Positions 5,301 through 44,097 of a stretch of 46,715 nucleotides of DNA are shown piece by piece (positions within the stretch are counted from its first letter, which is position 1; each line of letters starts with the position of its first letter). The DNA is taken from the NCBI GenBank assembly GCA_031270685.1, contig JAISXA010000179.1, positions 1 through 46,715 on the forward strand. Reading direction: 5' to 3'. A program made the position numbers and the translations under genes. The notes under the pieces were generated by a model, which searched no databases, was not told where the DNA came from, and was given only the letters and a program-made list of their open reading frames with translations. The stretch is from Planctomycetota bacterium (GTDB lineage: Bacteria > Planctomycetota > SZUA-567).

Positions 5301-5323
5301 TTCTTGAAGATGGGAAGGCAACC

Positions 5324-6301
5324 ATGTCCAGCACGGCGACGAACGGGAGAGGCGGAAAGTCCATCAATTGGAGCGCGCTGACCCTGTATATCGGCGCGGT
5401 GGCGATCATTATCGTCTTCACCGTGCTTTGCCGCTATTTTGGCCGCAACTTCCTGACCATAACCAATATACAGAACATCATCACCCAGTCGTCGATCATC
5501 GCCGTCATCGCCATTGGGGCGTCCCTGGTCATTTTGACGGGCGGCATCGACCTGTGCGTCGGCTCCATGGTCGGCTTTGTCGGCATTTTCGCCGGCCTGC
5601 TGATCAAGGGTGGAACGCCGGTATGGGCGGCCTGCATCGCCTCCATTGCCGCCGGAGCGCTCGCCGGGTTGGTAAACGGCGCCCTGGTCAGTTACGGCAA
5701 AGTTCCCGCCTTTATTGCCACCTTGGGCACCATGCAGATCTTGCGCGGGTTGGCGCTCCTGATCAACCTTGGGAAGCCGATTTCACGCTTCCCCGCCGAA
5801 CTCGGCAAGATCATGAACGCTAAAGTCGTCGGCAGCATGCCGGTGTCGGTGATATATGTTTTCGCCTTTTATTTCATCATGATCGTCGTCATGTCTTACA
5901 CCCACTTCGGACGCCATATTTACGCCTTCGGCGGCAATTCCAACGCGGCGAAGCTGTCCGGAGTGCGGATCAAGCGCATCGAAATGAGCGCCTATGTCCT
6001 GAGCGGCATATTTGCGGCCTTCGGCGGCATAATGCTCCTTTCCCGCCTGTCCTACGCCGATCCGAACGCGGGCAGCGGCTACGAAATGAACGCGATCGCC
6101 GCGACGGTCATCGGCGGCATATCTCTCTCGGGCGGCAGGGGCAAAATCGGCAACACCCTGGTGGGAGCGTTGATCCTCGGCTCGTTAACCTGCGGGCTGC
6201 AAATCCTTAATGTTCCGACCTATTACCAGACCATCCTGACCGGACTCGTCATTATTGGCGCGGTGTATGTCGACAAATCCCGTGAACGGAAGGCCGAATA
6301 G
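5324..6301 (+). CDS. CUT2 sugar ABC transporter permease (RbsC type)
   Basis: A 325-residue hydrophobic inner-membrane protein of the RbsC/AraH family, forming the sugar channel as a homodimer. The family blocks GGIDLCVGSMVGF, KVPAFIATLGTMQILRGLALL, FGGNSNAAKLSGVRI and AIAATVIGGISLSGGRGKIGNTLVGALI are all present. The ATG at 5324 is preferred over the in-frame TTG at 5297 because GGGAAGG lies six bases upstream and the N-terminus is then a short polar tail before the first membrane helix. It follows the ATPase by 23 bp. The binding-protein gene comes after an unusually long 362-bp gap. Confidence 0.93.
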   Translation: MSSTATNGRGGKSINWSALTLYIGAVAIIIVFTVLCRYFGRNFLTITNIQNIITQSSIIAVIAIGASLVILTGGIDLCVGSMVGFVGIFAGLLIKGGTPVWAACIASIAAGALAGLVNGALVSYGKVPAFIATLGTMQILRGLALLINLGKPISRFPAELGKIMNAKVVGSMPVSVIYVFAFYFIMIVVMSYTHFGRHIYAFGGNSNAAKLSGVRIKRIEMSAYVLSGIFAAFGGIMLLSRLSYADPNAGSGYEMNAIAATVIGGISLSGGRGKIGNTLVGALILGSLTCGLQILNVPTYYQTILTGLVIIGAVYVDKSRERKAE

Positions 6302-6663
6302 GAGGTTGTCGGCAAAATGCGGATATTCCGATGCGGCTGGCGCATTTTTTCGTCACGCTCCGAGGGAAAGACAAACCGCTGCTTGTCTCCGTCTCCTTGA
6401 CTGGTCGGGGAACCAGAACAGGGGACGGCGGGACTGTTCCCGCATTGTTTTTTTTGGGGGGGGTGTCATGAAAGGAGGCTCTAACCAGGAGAAAGGGTGA
6501 TTGTGGTTTTGCACCGGCGACGCCAGTAGGTGCTGGCGCGACGGAGGAACGAGTATGTTGCACGGAGGCAACGCGGTTGCCTCGCCCCTGCGAACGTCCA
6601 TGTTTATCAGACGCGCCGCCGGCGCGTCATGGCGAGGGGTTGATATCTTTCAGAGGAGCAGCC
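6302..6663 (+). other. 362-bp spacer between permease and binding protein, with two hairpins
   Basis: No convincing gene. It holds a hairpin at 6521-6538 (CGCCAG stem, 6-nt loop) and a stronger one at 6610-6628 (GACGCGCC stem of 8 bp, 3-nt loop) that ends 24 bp before the binding-protein ribosome site. A G-run and A/T-run occur near 6447-6466. Such hairpins in front of a binding-protein gene usually stabilise its message so that it is made in excess over the permease; that role is inferred here. No clear -35/-10 pair was found. Confidence 0.5.
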
Positions 6664-7635
6664 ATGAGGAAATCTTTGCTTTCGCTTTCAGTCGCCGTCC
6701 TTTTTACGGTATTGTTCGGCGCTGCGCAGGCGGCGCAGCCGAAGGAATATAAGGACATCACCATCGGTTTCGCCGGAATGACCCTGAACAACGAGTTCCA
6801 CATCACTCTCGCCAACGGCGCGCGCGAACAAGCCAAGGCGCTTGGCTGCACCATCGACGTACAGGCGGGCGACCAGCACGCCAGCGCCGCGACCCAGCTG
6901 ACGATCATCGAGAATATGCTGTCCAACAATGTCGACGGCCTCATCATCGTTCCCAGCGCGTCGGAAGGTCTGGAAACGGCCTTGCGGAAGAGCAGGGAGC
7001 AGGGAGTGCCGGTGGTCAATGCCGACACCCTCATCAACAAGGAAGTCGCGAAGCTCGCCGGCCTGGAAATCCCCTTCTATGGCACGGATAATTTCCAGGG
7101 CGCCAAGCTGGCTGGTGAATTCGTAAAGGGCAAGTTCTCCAAGGGGACCAAGACGGCGATCCTCACTGGCATCGAGGGCCATCAGAACACTTCCGACCGC
7201 CGCAACGGCTTCATCAAGGGCGCGGGTGACGCCATCGTCGTCGTCGCCGAACAGACGGCGAACTGGGAAGTGGATCAGGGCTATACCGCCGCGCAGAATA
7301 TAATCAGCGCCCATCCCGATCTCCAGCTGTTCTTCTGCAGCAATGACAACATGGGCATCGGCGCTCTGCGCGCGATCGAGGAAGCGGGACTCAAGGACCA
7401 GATCGCCGTCATCGGTTACGACGCGGTCAGCGAGGCGCTGAACCTGGTCGAAGCCGGCGATTTTCTCTGCACCGTCGCCCAGTATCCCGCCAAGATGGGC
7501 GAACTCAGCGTCATCAACCTCTGCAAAATGATTCGCGGCGAACCCTATGAAATGTACATCGACACCGGCTGCCGCGTCATCGCCAAGGACAATGTCCAGG
7601 AACACATGGATTACCTGTCCAAGTACGTAGATTGA
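6664..7635 (+). CDS. Periplasmic sugar-binding protein (RbsB/AlsB-like)
   Basis: A 323-residue periplasmic binding protein (Peripla_BP_4 type) that delivers the sugar to the preceding ABC importer. Residues 1-23 form a signal peptide ending AAQAA, with no lipobox, so it is a free periplasmic protein, as in Gram-negatives. Typical blocks are TIGFAGMTLNNEFH, NNVDGLIIVPSASEGL, GVPVVNADT, FYGTDNFQGAKLAGE, CSNDNMGIGALRAIEEAG and VIGYDAVSEAL. ATG 6664 was chosen because GAGGAG lies five bases upstream and it begins the signal peptide; the longer in-frame extension to 6577 would bury it. Ligand not determined; operon context suggests the sugar used by the kinase/aldolase pair. Confidence 0.93.
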   Translation: MRKSLLSLSVAVLFTVLFGAAQAAQPKEYKDITIGFAGMTLNNEFHITLANGAREQAKALGCTIDVQAGDQHASAATQLTIIENMLSNNVDGLIIVPSASEGLETALRKSREQGVPVVNADTLINKEVAKLAGLEIPFYGTDNFQGAKLAGEFVKGKFSKGTKTAILTGIEGHQNTSDRRNGFIKGAGDAIVVVAEQTANWEVDQGYTAAQNIISAHPDLQLFFCSNDNMGIGALRAIEEAGLKDQIAVIGYDAVSEALNLVEAGDFLCTVAQYPAKMGELSVINLCKMIRGEPYEMYIDTGCRVIAKDNVQEHMDYLSKYVD

Positions 7636-7727
7636 ATGCGACGTCGATGCCGGAAATCCTATTCCCCGGCGGGAATCGCCGGTTACGATTCCCGCCGGGA
7701 TTTTGAGAATTCGCATCGGCGCCATAT

Positions 7728-7777
7728 GTGGACTTTTGGAGAGAATCAGACAAACCGCCGTTCGATTCTCTCCAAAA
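7728..7777. repeat. AAACCGCC-loop hairpin, GGAGAGAATC stem
   Basis: Arms 7734-7747 and 7764-7777 are perfect 14-bp reverse complements; the middle holds AAACCGCC. It starts with GTGGACTTTTGGAGAG, the same boundary motif as the long repeats at 14334, 19305 and 33829. It lies between the binding-protein and aldolase genes, within the operon, ending 26 bp before the aldolase start. Confidence 0.85.
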
Positions 7778-7803
7778 TACTCAACGATAGGCTGGAGAAA
7801 ACG

Positions 7804-8448
7804 ATGGACTGCAGGCAATTGCTCATTGACGCCGGGCTGAGAATGATCAACGCTTCATTGACGGTGGAAACGTGGGGCAATATCAGCTTTCGCGATATCT
7901 CGACCGGCAACATTTACATTACCCCGAGCGGCATGGATTACGTTGCCTGCCGTTGCGACGACATACTGGTCTACAAACTCGATGGCGCCAAGCTTGAAGG
8001 CGAACGCAAGCCGAGCATCGAACTCGACCTCCATCTTTCCATCATGCGCAGCCGCCCGGAAATCAACGCCGTTATCCATACGCATCCGGTTTATTCCATG
8101 GTTTTCGCCTGTCTGAAACAGAATATCCCGCTGATCATGGACGAGGCGGCGCAATCCTTGGGCGAGGAGATCCGGGTCGCCGAGTATGCGCTCCCCGGCT
8201 CCCCGGAGTTGGCCGCCAATTGCGTCGCCGCGCTTGGCGAGAACGGCTATGCCTGCCTGTTGCAGTCCCACGGAGCGGTCTGCATCGGCGAATCAATGAA
8301 AGCCGCTTTCCGCACGGCGAAAGTCCTGGAACTGACGGCCCAAATCTACCATATGTGCAGGCAGATCGGCGAACCCGTCCCCATTTCCAAGGAAAACATC
8401 GCCGTCATGCGCGATTATTTTCGCAACAAATACGGCCAAGGCAAATAG
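7804..8448 (+). CDS. Class II aldolase/adducin-family protein (L-fuculose-1-phosphate aldolase-like)
   Basis: A 214-residue zinc aldolase of nearly the same length as E. coli FucA. The three metal-binding histidines are seen in INAVIHTHPVYS and LLQSHGAVCIG, and the catalytic glutamate in KPSIELDLHLS. Enzymes of this family cleave a ketose-1-phosphate to dihydroxyacetone phosphate and an aldehyde (lactaldehyde from fuculose or rhamnulose phosphate), or act as ribulose-5-phosphate epimerases. With the upstream kinase this would be the splitting step of a methylpentose pathway; lactaldehyde reduced to propanediol could then feed the glycyl-radical enzyme. That link is inference. Start 7804 follows GGAG at proper distance; the in-frame region before it is repeat DNA, not protein. 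The stop is followed at once by a hairpin. Confidence 0.9.
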   Translation: MDCRQLLIDAGLRMINASLTVETWGNISFRDISTGNIYITPSGMDYVACRCDDILVYKLDGAKLEGERKPSIELDLHLSIMRSRPEINAVIHTHPVYSMVFACLKQNIPLIMDEAAQSLGEEIRVAEYALPGSPELAANCVAALGENGYACLLQSHGAVCIGESMKAAFRTAKVLELTAQIYHMCRQIGEPVPISKENIAVMRDYFRNKYGQGK

Positions 8449-8498
8449 TGGACTTTTGAAGGAAATCAATCGAACCTCCGATTGATTTCCTTCAAAGT
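8449..8498. repeat. 18-bp perfect hairpin with variant loop GAACCTCC, directly after the aldolase stop
   Basis: Arms 8455-8472 and 8479-8496 are perfect reverse complements of 18 bp around AACCTC. It has the GTGGACTTTTG leader of the family, but the stem (GAAGGAAATCAATCG) differs from the others and the loop has one change. No T-run follows. Its position one base after the aldolase stop would suit an mRNA 3'-end structure for the whole operon. Confidence 0.85.
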
Positions 8499-8530
8499 TT
8501 CAGGACGTTCGTCTCAGCGCCGCTTTTTTT

Positions 8531-8644
8531 GCAATGTCGCGGGTTTGGGTCGAGTTGACGAAAAAACAACCCGTTGAAACGAAAGCGGTTGAATCTTTAA
8601 AGGAAATCGGGCGGCGGTTAGCCCGATTTCCTTTAAAAGTCGAC
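8531..8644. repeat. 113-bp intergenic repeat, copy 1 (ends in TAACCGCC-loop hairpin)
   Basis: This segment matches 34049-34162 over its full length with few changes: shared blocks include TTTGGGTCGAGTTGA, AAAAAACAACCC, TTGAAACGAAAG and AAAGGAAATCGGGCGGCGGTT. Its last part is a hairpin with arms 8596-8612 and 8621-8637 (17 bp, perfect) and loop GGCGGTTA, the reverse complement of TAACCGCC. The remainder of the 8449-8743 gap, between convergent operons, shows nothing else I can name. Confidence 0.85.
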
Positions 8645-8743
8645 AAATAACCTTCCCCGCTCCGGCGGCGGGAGGCGGATGAGGTGTTGTTCCTTTACCG
8701 GCAGCCGTGCCGGTGGTTGTTACGACGAAGCGGCGCCCGCGCT

Positions 8744-8977
8744 TCACCGGCCGGGGCCGAGGCATATTCCCAGCGCGATAAGGACGGCCAGCGCGACGAC
8801 GCAAAGAATGATGACGGCGTTCACCGCGCCCAGGGAAAGGTTCATCCGTTCGTAGAGGTTGTGTTTGATCGACTTCGCGTCAACCGCCCGCTCGCGCCGG
8901 GCCACGGCCCGCTCGCGCCGGGCAACCTCTTCCAGCCGCTTTTGGAGGTCGGAAGCCGAATCATCCATGCCGGTCAT
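8744..8977 (-). CDS. Small coiled-coil plus single membrane-helix protein at the end of the mgl operon
   Basis: I do not recognise this 77-residue protein. Its ATG overlaps the mglC stop (ATGA), so it is translationally coupled to the permease. Residues 10-40 are highly charged with a tandem VARRERAVARRERAV motif, a likely short coiled coil, encoded by a near-exact tandem DNA repeat around 8885-8925. Residues 48-73 form one hydrophobic membrane helix (AVNAVIILCVVALAVLIALGICLG). A second ATG at 8968 gives 74 residues. Coupling and membrane location suggest a partner or stabiliser of the MglAC complex, or a small regulator; neither is shown by sequence. It is small, but intact codon structure, coupling and clear protein architecture argue that it is real. 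Confidence 0.72.
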   Translation of the reverse strand: MTGMDDSASDLQKRLEEVARRERAVARRERAVDAKSIKHNLYERMNLSLGAVNAVIILCVVALAVLIALGICLGPGR

Positions 8978-9993
8978 TTCTTCTTGATGTACTTTCGCAT
9001 ATCGATCGCCACCGCCAGGATGATGATCACGCCCTTGATGATGTACTGGAGATAGGCGTTGATGCCAAGGTAGTACAGGCTGTAATTGATGGTCTGCAGG
9101 ATGACCACGCCGAGGATCACCCCGGGGATGGTGCCCACGCCGCCGGTGAAGGACACGCCGCCGATGACGCAGCCGCTGATGGCGTCGAGGTCGTAGTTCA
9201 GGCCGGTGGAGGTGGTGACGCTTTGCACGCGGCCCGCTTCCAGGAACGCCGCGATGCCGTAGAGGACGCCGGCGATGAGGTAAACGCCGAAGATGTTGCG
9301 GGCGACGTTGACGCCGGACACCGCCGCCGCCTCGGGGTTTCCGCCGATGGCGAACATGTTCTTGCCCAGCACCGTCTTGTTCCACACCACCCACATCGCC
9401 ACCGAGCAGACGGCGAGGTAGATGACCAGGTACGGCAGCCGGGTGAAGCCGAGGTCGAACGAACCGTTGACGAATTCGATGTAGCGGAAGTCGAGGTTCG
9501 CCAGCGGTTGCGCGCCGCCGGCCTGGCTGTCGATGTACAGGCACAGCGCGCCATAGGCGATGAGCTGGGTGCCGAGGGAGATGATGAACGGGTGCATGTT
9601 CAGGATCGCGAAGCCGAAGGCGTTCAGGGCGGTGAAGAGCATCGCCGCGATGATCGACAGGACGAGGGGCAGGATCAGCGGCAGCGGCGCGGTGATGCCC
9701 GGGTACATGCGGGCGCCGTAGGTCGTGCTTTGCAGCAGCGAGGCGGAAATCGCGGCCGAGCAGCCGAGGATGCGGCCCGCCGACAGGTCGGTGCCGGTGT
9801 AGACGATCATGCCGGCGACGCCGAGCGCCAGGATGCCCCGGGTGGAGGCTTGGGCCATGATGTTCGCGAAGTTGCCCCAGGAGAGGAAGGTGCGGTCCCA
9901 GACGACGACCGAGACGATCAGCAGTCCAAGGATGATGTACAGCGAATAGTTGAGAAACCATTCGGCCCAATTGAACCTCTTCGCCTCGTTCAT
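8974..9993 (-). CDS. mglC: Galactose/methyl-galactoside ABC transporter permease MglC
   Basis: A 339-residue inner-membrane permease. From memory of E. coli MglC the C-terminal half aligns closely: LDAISGCVIGGVSFTGGVGTI, INYSLYYLGINAYLQYIIKG and the lysine-rich end; also IALGVAGMIVYTGTDLSAGR-like and FAIGGNPEAAAVSGVNVARN blocks. It forms the channel for galactose-type sugars, powered by MglA. GGGGAGG sits just upstream of its ATG in the 15-bp gap after mglA, and its stop overlaps the start of the small membrane protein. Eight to ten membrane helices are apparent. Confidence 0.94.
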   Translation of the reverse strand: MNEAKRFNWAEWFLNYSLYIILGLLIVSVVVWDRTFLSWGNFANIMAQASTRGILALGVAGMIVYTGTDLSAGRILGCSAAISASLLQSTTYGARMYPGITAPLPLILPLVLSIIAAMLFTALNAFGFAILNMHPFIISLGTQLIAYGALCLYIDSQAGGAQPLANLDFRYIEFVNGSFDLGFTRLPYLVIYLAVCSVAMWVVWNKTVLGKNMFAIGGNPEAAAVSGVNVARNIFGVYLIAGVLYGIAAFLEAGRVQSVTTSTGLNYDLDAISGCVIGGVSFTGGVGTIPGVILGVVILQTINYSLYYLGINAYLQYIIKGVIIILAVAIDMRKYIKKK

Positions 9994-10008
9994 AGCCTCC
10001 CCGCTCCT

Positions 10009-11523
<1,515 letters not shown>

Positions 11524-31074: not shown

Positions 31075-32586
31075 TCACAACGCGTGGCGCATAATTCCTT
31101 CGCGACAGATGTCACCGCCCTCGAGGCAGGCCGAAAGCCCGCCGTGGCGCATCACCAGCACCCGGTCGGATTCGGACACGATCTCCGCCAGTTCCGAGGA
31201 CACGATGATCACCGACAGCCCCTTGTCCCGCAGATCCTTGATGATGCGGAAAATCTCGGCCTTCGCGCCGACGTCGATGCCGCGCGTCGGCTCGTCCACC
31301 AGCAGGATGCGCGGGTTCGCGGCCAGCCATTTGGCGATGACCACTTTCTGCTGGTTGCCGCCGGACAGGTTCCGGGCCAACTGGCGCTCGGACGAGGTCT
31401 TGATCGACAGCCCGCGCCGCGCTTCCGCGTAGACGTCCCGCATCGCCCCCCGGCGCAGCAGGCCGAACCTGCCGCTCATGGCCGCGGGGTTGGCGGAGTT
31501 GACGTTTTCGAGAACGGTCATCCGCGGGAAAATGCCGGCGTCGCGCCGGTTCTCCGGCGCCATGGCGAAGCCGTTGGCGATGGCTTCCGCTGGGCTGGCG
31601 TTGCGGATCGGCTTGCCGAAGGCGGTTATTTCGCCCGACCATTTCGGGGCCAGCCCGAAGAGGGTTTCCAGAACCTCGGTCCGGCCGGCGCCCTGAAGGC
31701 CGTAGATCCCCAGGATTTCCCGTTCGTAAAGGTCGAAGGAGACGCCGTCGAAACAGCCGGGGCGCGACAGGTTGCGCACCGAAAGAACCGCCTTATCCCC
31801 CCGCCCGCCCGGACCGCGCCTCCCCGGCCGGCTCCCGCCCAGCTCGGCGCCCAGTTCGCGCCCTGCGATCAGCGACACGATCTGGTCGGGATTCGCCTGT
31901 TCGCGCCCGTAGGTGCCGTGGTAGGATCCGTCGCGCAACACCGATATGCGGTCCGCGACGGCGAACACCTCCTCCATGCGGTGCGAGATGTAGATGATCG
32001 TCACGCCGGATTCGCGGAGGTCGCGGATGGTCTTGAACAACGCCTCCGACTCCTTGAGGCTCAGCGCCGAAGTCGGCTCGTCCATGACCAGGATGCGCGC
32101 GTCGAGGCTGATCGCGCGGGCGATCTCGACCACCTGCTGGTTCGCGACGTTCAGCGTCCGCACCAGGCTGTCCGGGTCCACGGGCGATCCGAGCCGCCCG
32201 AGAATCCCTTTCGCCGCGGCGCGCATCATCCCCCAGCGCACCTTGCCGCCGCCGAGTTCCCGCTCGCGCCCGAGGAAGATGTTTTCGGCGACGGTCAGGT
32301 TCGGGCACAGCCGCAGCTCCTGGTACACGACGCCGATGCCCAGGCTCCTCGCCGCGTGGGGATCGGCGATGCGGGTCTCCCTGCCGTCCAGCAGGAGCCG
32401 GCCGCCGTCCGGGGGGTATTCCCCCCCGAGGATGTTCATGAGTGTGGACTTGCCGGCCCCGTTCTCGCCAACCAGCGCATGGACCTCGCCCCGATCGGAG
32501 GTCCCGATGGCGAAGCTCACGCCCTTGAGCGCTTGGACGCCGGGAAAGCTTTTTTTCAGGTCGCGGAACTCGATGAGCGGCGTCAT
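31075..32586 (-). CDS. rbsA: Ribose-type ABC transporter ATP-binding protein RbsA
   Basis: A 503-residue double ATPase of the CUT2 family. Domain 1: [23 protein letters not shown] and ILVMDEPTSALS. Domain 2: degenerate Walker A GLQGAGRTE, signature LSGGNQQKV, Walker B LLVDEPTRG. A linker with a Gly/Arg-rich patch (GGSRPGRRGPGGRGD) joins the halves and is longer than usual. The ATG at 32586 overlaps the permease stop by four bases (ATGA); the in-frame sequence upstream is the permease in another frame. Assigned to ribose from the operon. Confidence 0.92.
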   Translation of the reverse strand: MTPLIEFRDLKKSFPGVQALKGVSFAIGTSDRGEVHALVGENGAGKSTLMNILGGEYPPDGGRLLLDGRETRIADPHAARSLGIGVVYQELRLCPNLTVAENIFLGRERELGGGKVRWGMMRAAAKGILGRLGSPVDPDSLVRTLNVANQQVVEIARAISLDARILVMDEPTSALSLKESEALFKTIRDLRESGVTIIYISHRMEEVFAVADRISVLRDGSYHGTYGREQANPDQIVSLIAGRELGAELGGSRPGRRGPGGRGDKAVLSVRNLSRPGCFDGVSFDLYEREILGIYGLQGAGRTEVLETLFGLAPKWSGEITAFGKPIRNASPAEAIANGFAMAPENRRDAGIFPRMTVLENVNSANPAAMSGRFGLLRRGAMRDVYAEARRGLSIKTSSERQLARNLSGGNQQKVVIAKWLAANPRILLVDEPTRGIDVGAKAEIFRIIKDLRDKGLSVIIVSSELAEIVSESDRVLVMRHGGLSACLEGGDICREGIMRHAL

Positions 32587-33569
32587 GCCTGAGCGTCCTT
32601 TCGGGTCCATTTGTCGATGGCGACCGCGCCGACGATGACCGCGCCGATGATGGTCATCTGCCAGAACGGCGACACCCCGAGGAGCACGATGCCGTTGTTG
32701 AGGACGCCCATGATGAGGACGCCGATGAGCGTTCCGAGAATGGTGCCTTCGCCGCCGGAGAGGGTGGTCCCGCCGATGATGACGGCGGCGATGGCGTTGA
32801 GTTCCATCCCCTGCCCGGTCGTGCCCTGGACATTGCCGAGGAAGGCGATGTTGAGCTGTCCGGCGATGGCCGAGAGCAGCCCGGCGATGCCGAAGGCGGC
32901 GATCTTGACCAGCTTGTCGTTGATGCCCGACGCCCTGGCGGCGGCGCGGCTGCCGCCCACCGCGCGCATCCGGAAGCCGAGCAGGGTGTGATGGTACAGG
33001 AAATAGGCGGCGATCACCACCGCCGCGAACACCAGGCTCATCACCGGGATCTCGCCGACCCTGCCCTGGCCCATGAACAGGAACCAGTCGAGGCCGTCCG
33101 CCTTGACGGTCCGGGGCGAGATGTTCACCACCCGCCCGCCGCTGAAGATCAGCGCCAGCCCCCGGGCCGCGTTCATCATGCCCAGCGTCACGATCATCGC
33201 CGGAATGCGCACCTGGGCGACGAGGACGCCGTTGGCGACGCCGAAGAAGACGCCCGCCGCGAGCCCGAGAATCACGCTCGATCCGACCGCGTGGCCGCCC
33301 ACCATCAGGACGCCGGCGGCGATGCCGGCGGCCCCGTAGATGGAGCCGACGGAGAGGTCGATCTCGCCGCAGACGATCACCAGCGTCATGCCCATGGCGA
33401 TTATGCCGAGGAGCGACACCTGCCTGACGATGTTGATGAAATTGGAGATGTTGAAGAAATACGGCGACAGCAGCGAAAAAAGGACGACGATCAGGGCCAG
33501 GGCCAGCGCGACGCCGAGCTCGCGCATGTTGAAAAGCCCGAACCGTCCGCGCCCGGTTGCTTCCGGCAT
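32583..33569 (-). CDS. rbsC: Ribose-type ABC transporter permease RbsC
   Basis: A 328-residue permease with the RbsC blocks MGMTLVIVCGEIDLSVGSIYG, VRIPAMIVTLGMMNAARGLALI, AVGGSRAAARASGI and AIAAVIIGGTTLSGGEGTILGTLIGVLI. It is the first gene of the ribose operon, unlike the order D-A-C-B-K in enterics. TTTGGAG lies close before the ATG. A strong promoter is 125 bp upstream. Confidence 0.93.
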   Translation of the reverse strand: MPEATGRGRFGLFNMRELGVALALALIVVLFSLLSPYFFNISNFINIVRQVSLLGIIAMGMTLVIVCGEIDLSVGSIYGAAGIAAGVLMVGGHAVGSSVILGLAAGVFFGVANGVLVAQVRIPAMIVTLGMMNAARGLALIFSGGRVVNISPRTVKADGLDWFLFMGQGRVGEIPVMSLVFAAVVIAAYFLYHHTLLGFRMRAVGGSRAAARASGINDKLVKIAAFGIAGLLSAIAGQLNIAFLGNVQGTTGQGMELNAIAAVIIGGTTLSGGEGTILGTLIGVLIMGVLNNGIVLLGVSPFWQMTIIGAVIVGAVAIDKWTRKDAQA

Positions 33570-35488: not shown

Positions 35489-37588
35489 ATGTCGATCCGG
35501 TTGCGCCTGGTTTTATGGTTCTTTGCGTGCCTGCTCTTCGTCAATATCTGCCTGGTCGTAATCGTCTTCCGGACGACCCGGGCGGTTGCGCAAAGAAACT
35601 TCCACGAGATGGCCGTCGCCCAGCTGCAGCGGGTGCAGGAACAGATCAACACTTTTCTGGCGCCGGGAATCATGGCGACCGAGTACCTCGCCGGGATGGA
35701 TCTGATCAAGGAGTCGCGGGGCGGCTTGACCAGTTATGTGGAGACCCGCGAGCGGACGACGCTGCTCTACGCCAACCATCCCCACCACGAGAAGCGCATC
35801 TATGCGGAATTCATGCGCGTCAAACACTATAATACGAATTTCGATCTCGTCTTCATGGCCAACAACGACGGGCAATACGCCCAGGCGCCCGAAGGGCGGT
35901 ACAAAAACGCGGGCTATGATCCGCGAAATCGGCCTTGGTACCGGGAGCTGGCGGCGAGTCCCGACCAGACCGTCATCAGCTCGCCCTATCTGACCACCGG
36001 CGCCGATATCGTCTGCAGCATCATGACCAAAACCGCCGATCCGGCCGGTTCACCCCTCGGCATGGTCGGCGTGGATTACCTGCTGACCAGCCTCACCGCC
36101 GATCTGTCCGAACGCCGCATTTTGAAAACCGGCTACCTCGTCGTCTTCGACCCCAACGGGCAGATCATTGTGGACGGCCATCATCCCGAGTTTGTCGGCC
36201 TGATCCCGCAGGACATCCCCGAAGCGGCCGAGGCCAAGGCCGGCGCAAGCGGAGAAGGCGCCCGCGCCTTGCGCCTGCTACTGTCCGCCGGCGGGGACGG
36301 CGAGTATCTGGGCGTGGGGGACCGCGGCGCCGGCGAGTACGCGATCACCTATTCCCTTCCGGGGTTGCGCTGGAAACTGGCGGTTATTTTCGAGCGTTCC
36401 GAGATGCTGGAGACCTCGTACCATGTCCTGCGGCGGATCCTGGCCCTCGCCATCCCCCTGTTCGTGGCGACCCTGCTCCTCACCTTCTATCTCGCCTTCC
36501 GCCTCAGCCAACCCCTGAAGCAGATGGCGACGCACTGTTCGCGCCTGGCTCTCGGCGACATTTCCGTCGACGTCTCGCCGGCGTCCCTGGCGCGGCGGGA
36601 CGAGATCGGCCTGCTCGCCCGGTCGCTGCAGGACATGATCGAATCCAACCGCGACGAACTCCAGATCGCCGACGCCCTGGCCAAGGGCGACTATTCGCGC
36701 TCGTTGCCGCTGCGGTCCGACGTCGACGCTCTGGGACGGGCTCTGGACGCCATGGTGAAGATCAACCACGCCACCCTTTACCGCATCGCCCAGCTGGTCA
36801 AAACCGTCAACAGCGGGGCCGAACTGGTGTCGAACGCATCCATGTCCCTTTCCGACGGCGCCCAGACCTCGGTGAAGGCGCTTCAGGAGATCTCCGACAC
36901 CATCAACCAGGTCGATCGCAAGGCGCGCGACAGCGCGCAAAACGCCCAGGAGGCGAACAAATTCGCGGGGATAAGCCAGGAGGCGGCCCGGCGCGGCTAC
37001 CACGCCATGACCGATTTGACCGACGGCATGGCGAAGATCCAGGAATCGGGCCGGCAAATCGGGCGCGTGGTCAAGGTCATAGACGATATCGCTTTCCAGA
37101 CCAATCTGCTGTCCTTGAACGCGGCGGTGGAGGCGGCGCGCGCCGGCAGGCAGGGAAAAGGCTTTTCCGTGGTCGCCGAAGAGGTGCGCGGTTTGGCGGT
37201 GCGTTCGGCGAAGGCGGCCCGCGAAACCGGCGTCATGGTGCAGAACATGGTGGAACAGCTGTTGTCCGGCGCGCAATTGGCCGAACGCTCGGACAAGGAA
37301 TTTCGCGAAATCGTCGAAACCGTCGACCGGGTGGTCAGCCTGTTCGAGCACATCGCCTCCGCTTCCGCCGACCAGTCCGCCGCCATTTCCCAGATCGTCC
37401 AGGGGCTGAGCCAGGTGGAGGTGGTGACGCACGACAACAGCCGGCATGCCGGGCGGCTTTCGGAATCGGCCGCGCACCTTTCACGCCAAGCGGAAGAGCT
37501 CAGGCAAATAGTCGCCCATTTCCGGCTGACTTCGGGCGCCGGCGAACCCGAATCCGGCAAAATTACAGTGGCGGAGCAACATAATTAA
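35489..37588 (+). CDS. Methyl-accepting chemotaxis protein with dCache domain carrying the amino-acid-binding motif
   Basis: A 699-residue chemoreceptor: membrane helix 1 (about residues 8-27), periplasmic dCache domain (about 35-300), membrane helix 2 (about 312-333), HAMP, and a signalling hairpin with DDIAFQTNLLSLNAAVEAARAGRQGKGF at the tip. The dCache pocket has the residues of the published dCache_1AA motif in the right order and near-identical spacing to PctA: Tyr143, Arg148, Trp150, Tyr151 (GYDPRNRPWY), Tyr167 (SSPYL) and Asp196 (VGVDY). It is therefore predicted to bind L-amino acids directly. Its cytoplasmic part is a close paralogue of the receptor at 22255. The last codons lie inside an inverted-repeat arm, so the present C-terminus may not be original. 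Confidence 0.93.
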   Translation: MSIRLRLVLWFFACLLFVNICLVVIVFRTTRAVAQRNFHEMAVAQLQRVQEQINTFLAPGIMATEYLAGMDLIKESRGGLTSYVETRERTTLLYANHPHHEKRIYAEFMRVKHYNTNFDLVFMANNDGQYAQAPEGRYKNAGYDPRNRPWYRELAASPDQTVISSPYLTTGADIVCSIMTKTADPAGSPLGMVGVDYLLTSLTADLSERRILKTGYLVVFDPNGQIIVDGHHPEFVGLIPQDIPEAAEAKAGASGEGARALRLLLSAGGDGEYLGVGDRGAGEYAITYSLPGLRWKLAVIFERSEMLETSYHVLRRILALAIPLFVATLLLTFYLAFRLSQPLKQMATHCSRLALGDISVDVSPASLARRDEIGLLARSLQDMIESNRDELQIADALAKGDYSRSLPLRSDVDALGRALDAMVKINHATLYRIAQLVKTVNSGAELVSNASMSLSDGAQTSVKALQEISDTINQVDRKARDSAQNAQEANKFAGISQEAARRGYHAMTDLTDGMAKIQESGRQIGRVVKVIDDIAFQTNLLSLNAAVEAARAGRQGKGFSVVAEEVRGLAVRSAKAARETGVMVQNMVEQLLSGAQLAERSDKEFREIVETVDRVVSLFEHIASASADQSAAISQIVQGLSQVEVVTHDNSRHAGRLSESAAHLSRQAEELRQIVAHFRLTSGAGEPESGKITVAEQHN

Positions 37589-37818: not shown

Positions 37819-40287
37819 ATGAGCAAAAAGATTGCGCTGTCGATAGCGGGTGCCGGTGTGATCGCGTTGACCCTGCTTTTGTCGCTGCGGCCGAGGCGGA
37901 TGGCCGAAGCGGAGACGCCTTCCGCGGAGGCTCCGGCCGCAACCGCCCGGAATTCCCCGCCGTCGGACAAGCTTCACGCCGGCGCGGCCTTCCACATAGG
38001 AATAGTGACCGGCAGTTCCGCCCAGGGCGACGACGAGCTGCGGGGGGCGCGGGAGGCGATCAGGCTTTACGGGGACGCCGGGAGCGGCGGCATGGTGCGC
38101 CATATCACCTATCCCGACAATTTCATCACCGGAATGGCGGAAACGATCGGTAGAGTAGTCGGCTTGGCGGACGATCCCCTGATGAAGGCGATCATCGTCA
38201 ATCAGGGGGTGCCTGGAACGGCGGAGGCTTTCCGTCAGGTCAAGGCGAAGCGCCCCGACATCGTCTGCCTGGCGGGAGAAGCCCACGAGGATCCCGATTT
38301 CATCGCGGACATCGCCGATCTGGTTGTAAACTCCGACTTCATATCCAGGGGATACCTGATTCCCTGGGCGGCAAGGGAACTGGGAGCGAAGAATTTTGTG
38401 CACATCTCATTTCCGCGGCATATGGTTGACGAATCCATAAGCCGCCGCCGGGCGATAATGGAGGCGGCCTGCGGAGATCTGGGATTGCGCTTCGCCACGG
38501 AAAACGCTCCGGATCCTGTGGGCGAGGCCGGAGTCGAAGGCGCGCGGAAATTCATCTCCGAGGCGTTTCCCGCCTGGATCGGAAAATACGGGAAGGAGAC
38601 CGCGTTCTTTTGCACCAACAACGCCCATACCGAGCCGCTGCTACGGCAAATAGCCTCCCTCGGCGGCTACTTTGTCGAAGCCGACATCCCCTCGCCGCTG
38701 CTCGGCTATCCGGGCGCTTTCGGAATCGAGATGACGGGAGGGAGTCAGGCCGGGGAGCGGGGGATCTTCCGGAAGATCGAGGAGGCGGTGGTGGAAGCGG
38801 GCGCCGCGAAACGCATGGGAACCTGGACCTATTCGCTCGGGTTCTGCCATTCGCTCGGGCTGGTGGAATTCGGGCGCCTGATCGCGGAAGGCAAGGCGGA
38901 AGCATCCGACCTGAAAACGCTTATCGGATGCTATGAAAAATTCTCGCCCGGCGCCGGCTGGAATTGCGATCGCTATACGGTAGCCTTCTCCGGGCGGCGG
39001 GTGGACAATTATGTCCTCGTTTATCAGGACACCTACGTGTTCGGCAAGGGTTATCTCGGCGGCGTGAACGTGAAGGTTCCTGAGAAATACCGGAACATCC
39101 GGATCGGCGCGGCGCCGAAAAAGCCGCCCGAACTGTTCCATATCGGGATAGTCACCGGAGACGTCACCCAGGGCGCGGACGATTATCTGGGGGCCAAGGA
39201 GATGCTTCGCCTTTACGGAGACGCCCTGGACGGCGGAATGATCCGCCACGCGATCTATCCCGACAATTTCATGGACGACGCCCGGCGGACCGTGCAGGTG
39301 ATCGCGGATTTGGCCGACGATCCGCTGATGCGGGTCATAGTCGTCAACCAGGCCGTTCCGGGAACGGGAGAGGGATTGCGCCGGGTCAAGGAAAAGAACC
39401 CCGACATCGTCTGCCTGGCGGGGGAGGCCCACGAGGAGATTGACGAATTGACTTCAGGCGCCGACCTGGTGGTGAACTCCGACTTCATTGCCCGGGGATA
39501 CCTCATCCCCTACCTCGCCAAAAAGCTCGGGGCGAAAACCCTGGTGCACATATCTTTCCCGCGACACATGAGCTACCGTCACCTGGCCCGCAGATGGTCC
39601 ATCATGCGCCGGGCCTGCGGCGATCTGGGGATTGCCTTCGCCAGCGAGGAGGCGCCGGATCCGACCGGAGGCGCCGGGATCGACGGCGCCCGGCGGTTCA
39701 TCCTGGAGAATTTTCCCGCCTGGGTCGAAAAATACGGCGCGGACACGGCGTTTTTCTGCACCAACGACGCACACACCGAACCCATCCTCAAACAGGTCGC
39801 GGCGAGCGGAAGCTATTTCATTGAAGCCGACATTCCCTCCCCGATCCTGGGTTATCCCCAGGCGTTCGGGATCGACATCGATTACGAGTCCGGCAACTGG
39901 CAGGCAATCCTGAGAAAGGTCGAGGAGGCTGTCGAAAAGGTGGGGGGCAACGACCGCATGGGAACCTGGGCCTATCCCCTGGGCGTCATCCAGACGGCCG
40001 GGATGGCCGAATTCGGACGCCTGATCGCCCTGAAGCGCACGGAAATCTCCGATATGCAGACGTTGCTCGAATGCTTCGGCAAATTTTCCCCCGGCGCCAC
40101 CTGGAACGGATCCTACTACATGGACGATCTGACCGCCAAGCCGCTGAAAAACTATTTCCTGGTGTACCAGGACACCTACATATTCGGGAAGGGGTACATG
40201 GGGATGACCGACGTCGAAATACCGGTGAAATATCTTTTGATCGGGATAGATCATGAAGTTCGGGAAGACGCTGAAAAGGGATTATAA
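37819..40287 (+). CDS. Tandem-duplicated DUF3798 (periplasmic-binding-protein-like) exported protein
   Basis: An 822-residue protein made of two copies of a domain I recognise as DUF3798, a family with a binding-protein-like fold and no known function. Copy 1 starts at FHIGIVTG (residue 58), copy 2 at FHIGIVTG (residue 439), a period of 381. Both keep RLYGDA-GGM-RH--YPDNF, LADDPLM, VPGT, PDIVCLAGEAHE, DLVVNSDFI-RGYLIP, VHISFPRHM, FFCTN-AHTEP, YF-EADIPSP and VYQDTY-FGKGY. Family members are normally single-domain, about 400 residues. Residues 5-24 form a signal peptide or membrane anchor without lipobox. GGGGGAGG precedes the ATG. The gene overlaps the hybrid kinase gene by 35 bp, so it probably supplies a ligand signal to that sensor; ligand unknown. 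Confidence 0.85.
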   Translation: MSKKIALSIAGAGVIALTLLLSLRPRRMAEAETPSAEAPAATARNSPPSDKLHAGAAFHIGIVTGSSAQGDDELRGAREAIRLYGDAGSGGMVRHITYPDNFITGMAETIGRVVGLADDPLMKAIIVNQGVPGTAEAFRQVKAKRPDIVCLAGEAHEDPDFIADIADLVVNSDFISRGYLIPWAARELGAKNFVHISFPRHMVDESISRRRAIMEAACGDLGLRFATENAPDPVGEAGVEGARKFISEAFPAWIGKYGKETAFFCTNNAHTEPLLRQIASLGGYFVEADIPSPLLGYPGAFGIEMTGGSQAGERGIFRKIEEAVVEAGAAKRMGTWTYSLGFCHSLGLVEFGRLIAEGKAEASDLKTLIGCYEKFSPGAGWNCDRYTVAFSGRRVDNYVLVYQDTYVFGKGYLGGVNVKVPEKYRNIRIGAAPKKPPELFHIGIVTGDVTQGADDYLGAKEMLRLYGDALDGGMIRHAIYPDNFMDDARRTVQVIADLADDPLMRVIVVNQAVPGTGEGLRRVKEKNPDIVCLAGEAHEEIDELTSGADLVVNSDFIARGYLIPYLAKKLGAKTLVHISFPRHMSYRHLARRWSIMRRACGDLGIAFASEEAPDPTGGAGIDGARRFILENFPAWVEKYGADTAFFCTNDAHTEPILKQVAASGSYFIEADIPSPILGYPQAFGIDIDYESGNWQAILRKVEEAVEKVGGNDRMGTWAYPLGVIQTAGMAEFGRLIALKRTEISDMQTLLECFGKFSPGATWNGSYYMDDLTAKPLKNYFLVYQDTYIFGKGYMGMTDVEIPVKYLLIGIDHEVREDAEKGL

Positions 40288-43006
40288 GCAGCTTCTCTTC
40301 GTCTGCGCGGCCTTTTCCGCCATGGCGTTTTCAAGTTATTGGTTCGTCAGCCTGGCGATGAAGCGGCAAATGGATCTCCATGGCCGGAGCGAGATGCGCG
40401 CCTACCAGACCGCGATGCGTTCCCTGGTTCTGGCGCACGAGGACGCCTTGCAGCATGCGGCCCTTTCAATAAGCGAGGCCCTGCGGACCGGGGCCGGTCC
40501 CGACGAATTGCTTGAAATCCTGAAGTCCTGGACCAACTTCTTCCGGGGCCAGAAGGACATCAAGGATGTTTTCGTCTCGGTTTACGGCTATCTGGACGGG
40601 AATTATCTGGACGGCAGCAGTTGGATCCCAGGAAAGTTCTTTTATCCCAAGACCGCCCCCTGGATGACCGGCGCCTTGATCCAGGACGGCATTTTTCATT
40701 CCAGGCCGTATGTCGATCCCCGGACCGGCAATGCGGTCAGCGCGGTGTCGATGGTCGTTTTCGACAAAACCGGGGACAGCCGCGGCGTCCTCGCCCTGGA
40801 TTATCTCCTGAATCCGGTGTTGGAGCAGGTGAAGGCCTACCGGGTGGGGGACGCCGGGCAGGGAATGCTCCTGGACGACTCGTTCAACGTTCTGACCCAC
40901 CGCGACGGTCGGAATATCGGCCGTCCTTTGGGGGAGTTGGCGGAATATTCCGCAGTGTACGAGAAATTGAAGCGCGTGAATGACGATGTTCTTGTCGAAA
41001 ATGTCCACGACGGCGAGGTCGAAAATGTCGGTTTCTTCACCAGACTCGAGAACGGGTGGTATCTGGGGATCATGGCGCCGATCAGGTACTACTACGGTGA
41101 AGTCTACGGCATGGCGTCGATTATAGCAGCGTTGGCGTTTTCCCTCGCCGCGACCCTTTGCGTCATTCTCGTCCGCCTGAGCGAGGCCCGGGTCCGGTCG
41201 GATCTCGAAAACCGGGCCAAATCCTCGTTTTTGGCGCGCATGTCCCATGAAATCCGGACCCCGATGAACGCCATAATCGGCATGGGCGATCTGGCGTACC
41301 GGGATTACGGAACGCCGCAGGCCCGCGAATACATCGCCGAAATCAGGCATTCCGGGCGCTATCTCCTTTCCATCATCAACGACCTCCTGGATTTCTCGAA
41401 GATAGAGTCGGGAAATTTCCGGATCAATTCCTCCCCCTACCATGTCTCCTCTCTGCTTAACGACGTGCTGACGATCATAGGCGTCCGCGCGGGCGAAAAG
41501 TCGCTGCGACTGCAAATCGAAATAGCTCCGGACATTCCCCGCCGCTTGATCGGCGACGAGGTGCGGATACGCCAGATCATGCTCAACCTTCTTTCAAACG
41601 CCCTGAAATACACCCATAAGGGCGGCCTGACCTTTTCCGCCAAAAGCGCGCCCCGGGACCCCGGAGTCGAGCTGACGTTCTCGGTGGAGGACACGGGAAT
41701 CGGAATCAGGCCGGAGGACATGGAAAATCTCTTCAAGGATTTCGTCCGCCTCGATCGGACCAGCGAAGACGCCGTCGAAGGCACCGGCCTGGGTTTGTCG
41801 ATTTCCCGCAGCCTGTGCCGGGCGATGGACGGGGACATCACGGCCGCCAGCGTTCACGGCAAGGGGTCGATCTTCACCGCCGCCATAATGCAAAATGTCG
41901 CCGATTGGACTCCCCTCGGCCCCTTCGACCGGATCGGCGGCGGCAAGGCGGATCTCCAGCGGCAGGACGCCATCTTTTACGCGCCCGGATTCCGCATTCT
42001 GATCGTCGACGACGTGTCCACGAACCTGATCATAGCGCGCGGCCTCCTCTCCCCCTTCGGCTTCGAGATCACTACCTGCCTGGGCGGCCGCGAGGCGCTC
42101 GAGGCGGTGAAGAAATCCCCCTTCGATCTGATTCTCCTCGATCACATGATGCCCGAACCGGACGGCATCGAGACCCTGAGGATGCTGCGCGCCCTCGGAA
42201 AGCCGGGTTCGGCGCCCGTCGTCGCCCTCACCGCCAACGCCATGACCGGAATGCGGGAGATGTTTCTGTCCCATGGATTCGACGACTATCTTTCCAAGCC
42301 GATAGAAGACGGGAAGCTCCTGGAACTCCTGGAAAAATGGGTGCCGCCGGCGGCGCGGCAGGAAAAGGCGCCAGGGGCGGGAGGAAGCGATCCCGCCGGT
42401 CCGACCGGATTCGCGATCAATGGAATCGACGTGGAGTTAGGTTTGCGGAGAATGCGGGGATCGCGGCGGGATTACCTGCGGTTGCTCGCCGCCTTCCGCC
42501 GGGACGCGGCTTCATGCCTCCCGTTCCTCGACGACGTTCCGGAAGCGGGGATCGACGCTTTCGTCATGCAAGTCCATGCCTTGAAAGGCGCCTCCGCCAA
42601 TATCGGCGCCGTCGCCCTGGCGGAGGAATCCCGGCGTCTCGAGGAGGCGGGAAAGATGCGGGATTTCCGGACCATACGCGACGCCCTGGAAGGATACCGC
42701 CGGCAGGTGGCCGGTTTGATCGACGACATCCGGAACGTCCTGGAGTCCGAGGCCGCTTCGGAACGGGAGGAGGGAAACCTTCCTGGGGGCGGGATGCCGG
42801 AAGCCGGGGAACTGGTTCGACTCAAGGAGGCGATTCGATCCAGGAACATCCAGGCCATCGACCGCAACCTGGACCAGCTCCTCGACCGCCGCTATCCCGG
42901 AAAGACAGGCACGGCACTGTCCCTGGCCGCCGATTATTTGCTGGCGTCGGATTTCAGGGAGGCGGAAAGCGTTGTGGACGAACTGCTCAAGGAGGCGGGA
43001 GCGTGA
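40253..43006 (+). CDS. Hybrid sensor histidine kinase (dCache - HisKA - HATPase - receiver - HPt)
   Basis: A 917-residue inner-membrane sensor. Order: membrane helix 1 (about 14-35), periplasmic Cache-type domain (about 36-285), membrane helix 2 (about 287-310), HisKA with phospho-acceptor His332 (FLARMSHEIRTPMNAIIGM), HATPase_c (NLLSNALKYTHKGG, DTGIGI, GTGLGLSIS), receiver with Asp630 (LILLDHMMPEPDG), HPt with His775 (VHALKGASANIGA), and about 85 further helical residues. The Cache domain lacks the arginine of the amino-acid motif (FYPKTAPWM), so it binds something else, perhaps the DUF3798 protein. It can relay phosphate internally to the HPt and then to the next gene's receiver. Its start lies inside the preceding gene; its stop overlaps the next start (GTGA). 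Confidence 0.93.
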   Translation: MKFGKTLKRDYKQLLFVCAAFSAMAFSSYWFVSLAMKRQMDLHGRSEMRAYQTAMRSLVLAHEDALQHAALSISEALRTGAGPDELLEILKSWTNFFRGQKDIKDVFVSVYGYLDGNYLDGSSWIPGKFFYPKTAPWMTGALIQDGIFHSRPYVDPRTGNAVSAVSMVVFDKTGDSRGVLALDYLLNPVLEQVKAYRVGDAGQGMLLDDSFNVLTHRDGRNIGRPLGELAEYSAVYEKLKRVNDDVLVENVHDGEVENVGFFTRLENGWYLGIMAPIRYYYGEVYGMASIIAALAFSLAATLCVILVRLSEARVRSDLENRAKSSFLARMSHEIRTPMNAIIGMGDLAYRDYGTPQAREYIAEIRHSGRYLLSIINDLLDFSKIESGNFRINSSPYHVSSLLNDVLTIIGVRAGEKSLRLQIEIAPDIPRRLIGDEVRIRQIMLNLLSNALKYTHKGGLTFSAKSAPRDPGVELTFSVEDTGIGIRPEDMENLFKDFVRLDRTSEDAVEGTGLGLSISRSLCRAMDGDITAASVHGKGSIFTAAIMQNVADWTPLGPFDRIGGGKADLQRQDAIFYAPGFRILIVDDVSTNLIIARGLLSPFGFEITTCLGGREALEAVKKSPFDLILLDHMMPEPDGIETLRMLRALGKPGSAPVVALTANAMTGMREMFLSHGFDDYLSKPIEDGKLLELLEKWVPPAARQEKAPGAGGSDPAGPTGFAINGIDVELGLRRMRGSRRDYLRLLAAFRRDAASCLPFLDDVPEAGIDAFVMQVHALKGASANIGAVALAEESRRLEEAGKMRDFRTIRDALEGYRRQVAGLIDDIRNVLESEAASEREEGNLPGGGMPEAGELVRLKEAIRSRNIQAIDRNLDQLLDRRYPGKTGTALSLAADYLLASDFREAESVVDELLKEAGA

Positions 43007-44097
43007 GCGTGACGGAGACGGGGCGACCCCGGATCATGATCGTCGATGACATGTTGACGAACCTGAGGAACGCCAAGGCGGCGCTGTCCGACCAATACGA
43101 TGTTTTCACCGTCGCCTCCGCCGCCAGAATGTTCGCCTTGCTGGAGGAGGAAACCCCGTCCCTGATCCTGCTCGACATCAACATGCCGGAGATAAGCGGC
43201 ATCGAGGCGATAAAAACGCTCAAGGGCCGGGCCGACACGCGGGAGATCCCGGTGCTGTTTCTTACCGCGAGGAACGATTCGGAGAGCGAGGTGGAAGGCC
43301 TGAGCCTGGGCGCGGTGGATTACATATCCAAGCCGTTCGATCCCCCGCTGCTGCGCAAGCGGGTGGAAATTCACCTGACGATGGAGTACCAGAAGAAGAA
43401 CCTGGAAAGGCAGAAACTGGAGCTGCAGGATTTCAACGCCAATCTGCGGCGCATGGTCGAGGAGAAGACCGGCAAGGTGCTCGAATTGCAAAGCGCGATC
43501 CTGCGTACCCTGGCGGACGCGGTGGAGAGCAGGGACGACGCGACCGGCGGACACGTGCAGCGCACCCAGCGCTGGCTGGCGATTTTGCTGGACGGTTTGC
43601 GGCGGTCCGGCCTCCATGCCGTGGAAATCTCCGCCTGGCCGACGGAACTCCTGCTGCAATCGTCGCAGTTGCACGATGTGGGCAAGATTGCGATCAGCGA
43701 CGGCATCCTGAAAAAACCCGGGCCGCTCACCGCGGACGAGTTCGAGGAGATGAAGCGGCATTGCGCATTCGGGGCGGGAATAATCGAAAAGATAGGCGCG
43801 AACATTTCCGAGAGCGATTTTTTGATCCAATCCAGGATATTCGCCCTGACGCACCACGAAAAATGGGACGGTTCCGGATATCCCGGCGGCCTGCGCGGGA
43901 AGGATATCCCCCTCCAGGGTAGACTCATGGCGATAGCGGACGTTTACGACGCGCTGATCTCCGACCGTCCCTACAAAAAAGCCTTTTCGCATCCGGAGGC
44001 GGCGCGTATCATCATCCAGGGCGCGGCAAACCATTTCGATCCGGAGTTGATCGAGGTGTTCCGGGGGATCGAGCCAAGGTTCGGCGAAAGTTCGTGA
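43003..44097 (+). CDS. Response regulator with HD-GYP cyclic-di-GMP phosphodiesterase domain
   Basis: A 364-residue protein starting at GTG 43003, which overlaps the kinase stop; AAGGAGG lies at ideal distance. The receiver (about residues 9-125) has the acidic pair IVDD, phospho-acceptor Asp58 (LILLDINMPE) and the lysine of YISKPFD. A coiled-coil linker (about 130-165) leads to an HD-GYP domain with SQLHDVGKIAISDGIL and HHEKWDGSGYPGGLRGKDIP, so all the catalytic residues are present. It should degrade cyclic-di-GMP when phosphorylated by the upstream hybrid kinase, linking the periplasmic signal to motility or attachment. Confidence 0.95.
   Translation: MSVTETGRPRIMIVDDMLTNLRNAKAALSDQYDVFTVASAARMFALLEEETPSLILLDINMPEISGIEAIKTLKGRADTREIPVLFLTARNDSESEVEGLSLGAVDYISKPFDPPLLRKRVEIHLTMEYQKKNLERQKLELQDFNANLRRMVEEKTGKVLELQSAILRTLADAVESRDDATGGHVQRTQRWLAILLDGLRRSGLHAVEISAWPTELLLQSSQLHDVGKIAISDGILKKPGPLTADEFEEMKRHCAFGAGIIEKIGANISESDFLIQSRIFALTHHEKWDGSGYPGGLRGKDIPLQGRLMAIADVYDALISDRPYKKAFSHPEAARIIIQGAANHFDPELIEVFRGIEPRFGESS

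Follow-up and report, generated by a model that had tools for sequence, protein, structure and literature searches.

The Vibrio AI-2 receptor LuxP-LuxQ pairs a type I solute-binding protein (SBP) with a hybrid kinase that carries a Cache/PDC-type periplasmic domain, and signals through a separate Hpt protein, LuxU, to the output LuxO. That SBPs can serve as co-sensors of kinases has already been established for other families too. The XylFII-LytS complex contains two SBPs and two kinases, an arrangement also modelled for CuaD-CuaS (PMC10384115). Both XylFII-LytS and CuaD-CuaS-CuaR consist of a sensing-only SBP encoded beside a kinase and a regulator, the latter being tuned to transporter genes.

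A comparable arrangement is found in a 46,715-nucleotide contig of a planctomycete genome, the whole of which is referred to here as the window. Three genes follow each other on the + strand: a tandem DUF3798 protein (37819-40287), a hybrid kinase (40253-43006) and a REC-HD-GYP regulator (43003-44097). The end of the DUF3798 gene overlaps the ATG of the kinase gene by 35 bp (40253-40287), and the kinase and regulator genes overlap by 4 bp, GTGA, which contains the GTG start of the regulator. The 35-bp overlap recurs in L008, L162 and L205, and overlapping gene ends are conserved in several genomes where the proteins are about 60-70% identical. The overlaps are not due to chance, as the orthologous junctions of other genomes carry matching ones.

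As in LuxP-LuxQ, a type I SBP neighbours a hybrid kinase whose periplasmic domain is of the Cache/PDC type, and the phosphorelay would have several steps. However, the SBP is DUF3798 and not LuxP, with two SBP domains per chain, the Hpt domain is within the kinase, and the output is an HD-GYP protein; the kinase scores 275 bits against the LuxQ equivalog model NF041947, far under the cutoff of 1200. XylFII-LytS and CuaD-CuaS-CuaR use other SBP families as separate chains, whereas the window cassette has an HD-GYP enzyme as output and no adjacent transporter. By analogy, the best reading is that the window system works like LuxPQ, XylFII-LytS and CuaDSR while being a member of none of them. We consider it likely that it forms a three-component SBP-kinase-phosphodiesterase system, in which the twin SBP acts purely in sensing, as a co-receptor of the dCache hybrid kinase. 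In some anaerobic gut-type bacteria, the cassette would then probably sense a nutrient instead of importing it.

The twin protein (822 residues) scores 717 bits in total against PF12683 (curated cutoff 24.6), with two full-length domains. The N-terminal domain (37990-38820, E-value 5.1e-110) and the C-terminal domain (39136-39963, E-value 1.7e-106) are 57.7% identical and are spaced by 381-382 residues. The best PDB match of an AF2 model of the protein (mean pLDDT 85) is 3qi7 (TM 0.84 to the target), a solved DUF3798 protein from C. difficile, followed by ribose, allose and galactose binding proteins, which are type I SBPs. The modelled fold places DUF3798 among the type I periplasmic SBP families, and PF12683 is listed among SBP families (PMC9602780). 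The PDB entry 3qi7 is labelled "putative transcriptional regulator", though the family is one of ABC binding proteins. Residues 1-31 of the twin protein (37819-37911) form a hydrophobic segment followed by RPRR, without a lipobox, which is probably a signal anchor or an atypical signal peptide; export is likely, judging from this segment. A lipobox was found in none of the seven kinase-linked DUF3798 proteins with a readable N-terminus. A membrane anchor was discarded as a marker of signalling copies, as several single copies, some of them ABC-linked, also have an anchor-like N-terminus.

The kinase (917 residues) has the architecture TM-dCache-TM-HisKA-HATPase_c-REC-Hpt, with the periplasmic dCache domain at 40358-41107, the receiver domain at 41996-42331 (PF00072, residues 582-693) and the Hpt phosphotransfer domain at 42482-42706 (PF01627, residues 744-818). 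The dCache_1 match is below the Pfam cutoff and the domain was assigned by its fold, the AF2 model of the sensor (pLDDT 86) matching the dCache domains of PctA and Mlp37. The regulator consists of REC and HD-GYP domains. It matches PF13487 and carries both HD and GYP motifs in the signature HDVGK...(DGS)GYPGG, from which it is predicted to be a cyclic-di-GMP phosphodiesterase. An earlier note, drawn from the letters of the window, had described three overlapping genes, a DUF3798 domain doubled in one chain with a period of 381 residues, a kinase with a periplasmic Cache domain and an HD-GYP output; all of this agrees with the present assignments, to which the Hpt domain is added.

In PctA, R126 binds the carboxylate of the amino acid, and Y129 is the conserved aromatic residue of the motif (PMC10104139). 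The R126-W-Y129 motif is replaced by A-P-W-M in the window kinase. In all DUF-linked kinases, the residue equivalent to R126 is A, S or T and that equivalent to Y129 is M or L, while the equivalents of W, Y144 and D173 are retained; the dCache_1AA ligand motif (of the R126/W128/Y129/Y144/D173 type) is incomplete in every one of them. The tree places this loss in a single event, confined to the DUF3798 clade, since the Bmp-linked Synergistota kinases presented below retain RPW[YF], and it does not count as independent evidence. The idea that such a loss marks SBP-dependent kinases in general was rejected for the same reason.

Two neighbours of the operon were considered as further parts of the system. 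Encoded 230 bp upstream (35489-37588) is a methyl-accepting chemoreceptor whose dCache domain still has the RPWY motif, and downstream a VIT protein. Both were set aside, as tblastn searches with them gave no match beside the cassette in L008 or C91. An Rbs-type transporter (31075-33569) was also rejected as a partner, being on the opposite strand, about 2 kb away, and having its own SBP.

The ancestral role of DUF3798 is ABC import, as the gene adjoins DUF3798-type ABC permeases in 68 of the 80 closest loci, drawn from GTDB genomes of Spirochaetota, Thermotogota, Synergistota and Bacillota. The typical neighbours are one ABC ATPase and two permeases; the remaining 12 loci are mostly contig ends or isolated DUF3798 genes. 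The domain had been described in the earlier note as having no assigned role, which does not hold in view of these neighbours and of the listing as an SBP family. Its proposal that DUF3798 is a receptor for signalling, to be checked by a survey of gene neighbourhoods, fares differently in the two parts of the family. It does not apply to single-domain members, which are usually ABC-linked; a predominance of ABC permeases as neighbours was one half of what the note itself had named as refuting its proposal. It is supported for the tandem-fused subclade, which is linked to kinases only, in two phyla. Every tandem-fused copy found adjoins a dCache hybrid kinase, usually with the same overlaps and the regulator, and kinase linkage was found for none of the single-domain copies among the loci examined, L031 and L046 having a weak, distant kinase-like match nearby. 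No paper on DUF3798 in signalling was found in a literature search of incomplete coverage, the two published mentions found being in tables only. The cassette would provide the first non-transport biological context for a domain still named as being of unknown function.

The main alternative is that the twin protein still serves transport, as the SBP of an unlinked sugar-type ABC importer, with the kinase merely regulating nearby and sensing its own dCache ligand. The 3.2-Mb window genome does encode dozens of RbsA-like (sugar-type) ABC ATPases, the Rbs-type transporter of the window lies on the other strand, and residues of the transporter-clade pocket are retained in the tandem halves. However, an ABC ATPase with two permeases is absent from the neighbourhood of the twin gene, and a search of the window genome yielded no cognate DUF3798-type permease (best match in G000 1.3e-7), although in a genome that is 88.65% complete an unlinked transporter could be missed. 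The permease was likewise undetected in G012 (best 1e-6), whereas G048 has it next to its single DUF3798 gene (6e-84) and the genome of L009 encodes it too. The exclusive fusion and kinase linkage, conserved in two phyla with overlapping genes, and the loss of the known dCache amino-acid motif also speak against transport. So do changes at putative docking residues: E78 and Q243, invariant in the transporter copies, are mostly basic residues in both tandem halves. These substitutions may mark the loss of permease docking. Compared with the DUF3798 ABC binding proteins such as 3qi7, which have the same domain, fold and conserved pocket loops, the window protein is tandem-fused and kinase-linked, with no linked or detectable cognate permease. 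We therefore regard continued transport as unlikely. With the co-receptor preferred, the likely steps by which an SBP was converted from a pump part to a sensor are visible: fusion, loss of the permease, changes of surface residues and loss of the ligand motif of the kinase.

In another alternative, the twin protein would keep the kinase inactive as a negative regulator or ligand scavenger, or would be a structural clamp, instead of a ligand-activated co-receptor. Several kinases of the same clade have no DUF3798 gene beside them (those of L207, L208 and L209, and in L206 the second of two), and for this reason the SBP may be dispensable for kinases of this clade. Those of L207 and L209 could be constitutive or sense directly. 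(In L206, at 5141-10976, one twin DUF3798 gene precedes two consecutive genes for related dCache kinases.) The conservation of the pockets bears on a pure clamp, which would not need them. Eighty-eight positions are at least 97% conserved in the transporter copies, of which 44 lie in strand-end loops and are taken as the pocket by the logic of the fold, not from a ligand-bound structure. These loop positions are kept at 92% in the N halves and 89% in the C halves, against 81% for the other 44 positions, and both pockets therefore look functional as far as residue conservation can tell. A holding or clamping role is accordingly considered improbable.

The intact domains allow a sequence of events to be proposed for the co-receptor. 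The binding subunit of an ABC importer would have been duplicated and fused into one chain, becoming a periplasmic co-receptor of the dCache hybrid kinase. Ligand would close one or both of the lobed pockets and alter the contact of the twin protein with the dCache dimer, and the altered contact would switch the activity of the kinase. Phosphate is presumed to follow a His-Asp-His(Hpt)-Asp route to the HD-GYP regulator, which may then alter the level of cyclic-di-GMP. L116 (5893-9612, G006) is a homologous kinase naturally fused to a REC-HD-GYP module, in one chain of 1239 residues (dCache-HisKA-HATPase-REC-Hpt-REC-HD-GYP).

DUF3798 lies beside this type of kinase in nine loci of seven genomes from two phyla, Synergistota and Planctomycetota. 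Both halves are seen in eight of the nine, the ninth being cut by a contig end. Few Planctomycetota carry DUF3798: of 392 genomes sampled, 6 have a match above the family cutoff, among them the window genome. In the family of the window genome it was found only there and in G012, in both cases in tandem and adjacent to a kinase. G012 has the whole cassette on one contig (G012:C33, sequence L008), with 84-89% identity over most domains. On a second (G012:C22) the twin protein is accompanied by a kinase that lacks REC and Hpt and has no regulator next to it, which speaks against the preferred reading. A decayed DUF3798 remnant with an internal deletion is present in L097 (1-332, G012:C23), its start being nearly identical to the end of C22. 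The window genome has a second copy on contigs C91 and C176, which share 119 identical overlapping bases and when joined give the order kinase, regulator and intact twin DUF3798. A DUF3798 tail of 36 residues (L006, the C91 sequence, 604-705) occupies the usual place upstream and overlaps the start of the kinase gene.

In Synergistota, DUF3798 exceeds the cutoff in 86 of 101 genomes. In G471 the genes for the twin protein and the kinase again overlap by 35 bp, and the ATG of the regulator lies at the contig end. Other long frames at single Synergistota DUF3798 genes (up to 842 residues) were rejected as fusions, being mostly upstream non-coding read-through, which left G471 as the sole tandem of that set. 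With the kinase sensor as bait, further cassettes were found in Synergistota, complete in G555 and G565 and partial in G559 and G533; the twin protein of G555 has an apparent frameshift in its second half. Homologous LuxR-type regulators of about 458 residues are encoded upstream of both complete Synergistota cassettes (L203, 1066-2445; L205, 6369-7745).

In the phylogeny, the tandem halves from Synergistota and Planctomycetota all fall into a single clade (SH-aLRT 100), which branches from among transporter-linked Synergistota sequences. Within it the C halves are joined in one group (SH-aLRT 81), the N halves being less well resolved. The simplest reading of the tree is that duplication and fusion happened once, probably in Synergistota or close to them, with a later transfer to Planctomycetota, the direction being deduced. 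The C91 copy groups with Synergistota, and its G+C content is lower (56%; window contig 62%), so that either a misbinned contig or a second transfer event is conceivable. This question does not affect the window copy, which lies on a 46.7-kb contig and has a close match in another planctomycete genome.

More distant Synergistota relatives of the kinase directly adjoin one or two PnrA/Bmp SBP genes, sometimes together with an HD-GYP regulator (L213, 2901-4022 and 3-2900; L216, 3534-8043; L217, 4099-9301; L218, 3176-8692; L221, 3760-13858). These SBPs, encoded by single genes or tandem gene pairs, have anchor-like N-termini. In two planctomycete genomes of the family of the window genome, a dCache kinase gene is followed by an orphan Bmp lipoprotein gene without ABC genes (L122, 1964-5678; L123, 5726-9331). 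The pairs resemble the window cassette in the related kinase sensor, the one or two adjacent SBP genes and the occasional HD-GYP regulator. They differ in that the SBP is of the Bmp family and encoded by separate genes, and RPW[YF] is mostly intact in the kinase. The Bmp-kinase pairing is a parallel recruitment and, together with the L116 fusion, indicates that this kinase family habitually uses SBPs and feeds HD-GYP enzymes. The Synergistota pairs look like an undescribed family; a literature search with incomplete coverage found no paper pairing PnrA/Bmp with sensor kinases. That DUF3798 and the kinase do not interact functionally and are linked only through the past of a mobile cassette, which apparently moved between phyla and has a rearranged gene order in C91, is very improbable given the junctions retained at about 60-70% protein identity, the intact twin copy just downstream of the regulator in C91 where the upstream one has decayed to a tail, and the analogous Bmp pairing.

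For the co-receptor itself, a more specific arrangement is possible, although we hold it only tentatively. The fused pair might be a covalent bivalent co-receptor in which a single chain contributes the two SBPs of a 2:2 complex with the kinase, its pockets being non-equivalent and the kinase dimer being read asymmetrically. The non-equivalence would be permanent, the divergence of the N and C halves predating the spread of the cassette from one phylum to the other. Pairing of SBPs would be a recurrent design, as two SBP genes often adjoin the kinase gene in the Bmp-linked relatives. One kinase dimer could be served by such a covalent pair, given that two SBPs meet two kinases in XylFII-LytS and CuaD-CuaS is modelled alike. 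If so, one chain would give a kinase dimer an asymmetric input. The natural twin chain is a tractable system for studying the way in which a kinase dimer is addressed by two SBPs.

The gene neighbourhood was discarded as a guide to the ligand, as the only neighbours that recur widely across 83 loci are the genes of the transporter and that of a small membrane protein, a frequent extra member of the DUF3798 transporter operon (48 of 83 loci). In two Synergistota genomes, agmatinase-, decarboxylase- and spermidine-synthase-like genes lie beside DUF3798 (L228, 826-6264; L229, 7846-14901), and these neighbours, spotted by eye only, are a possible hint of the ligand.
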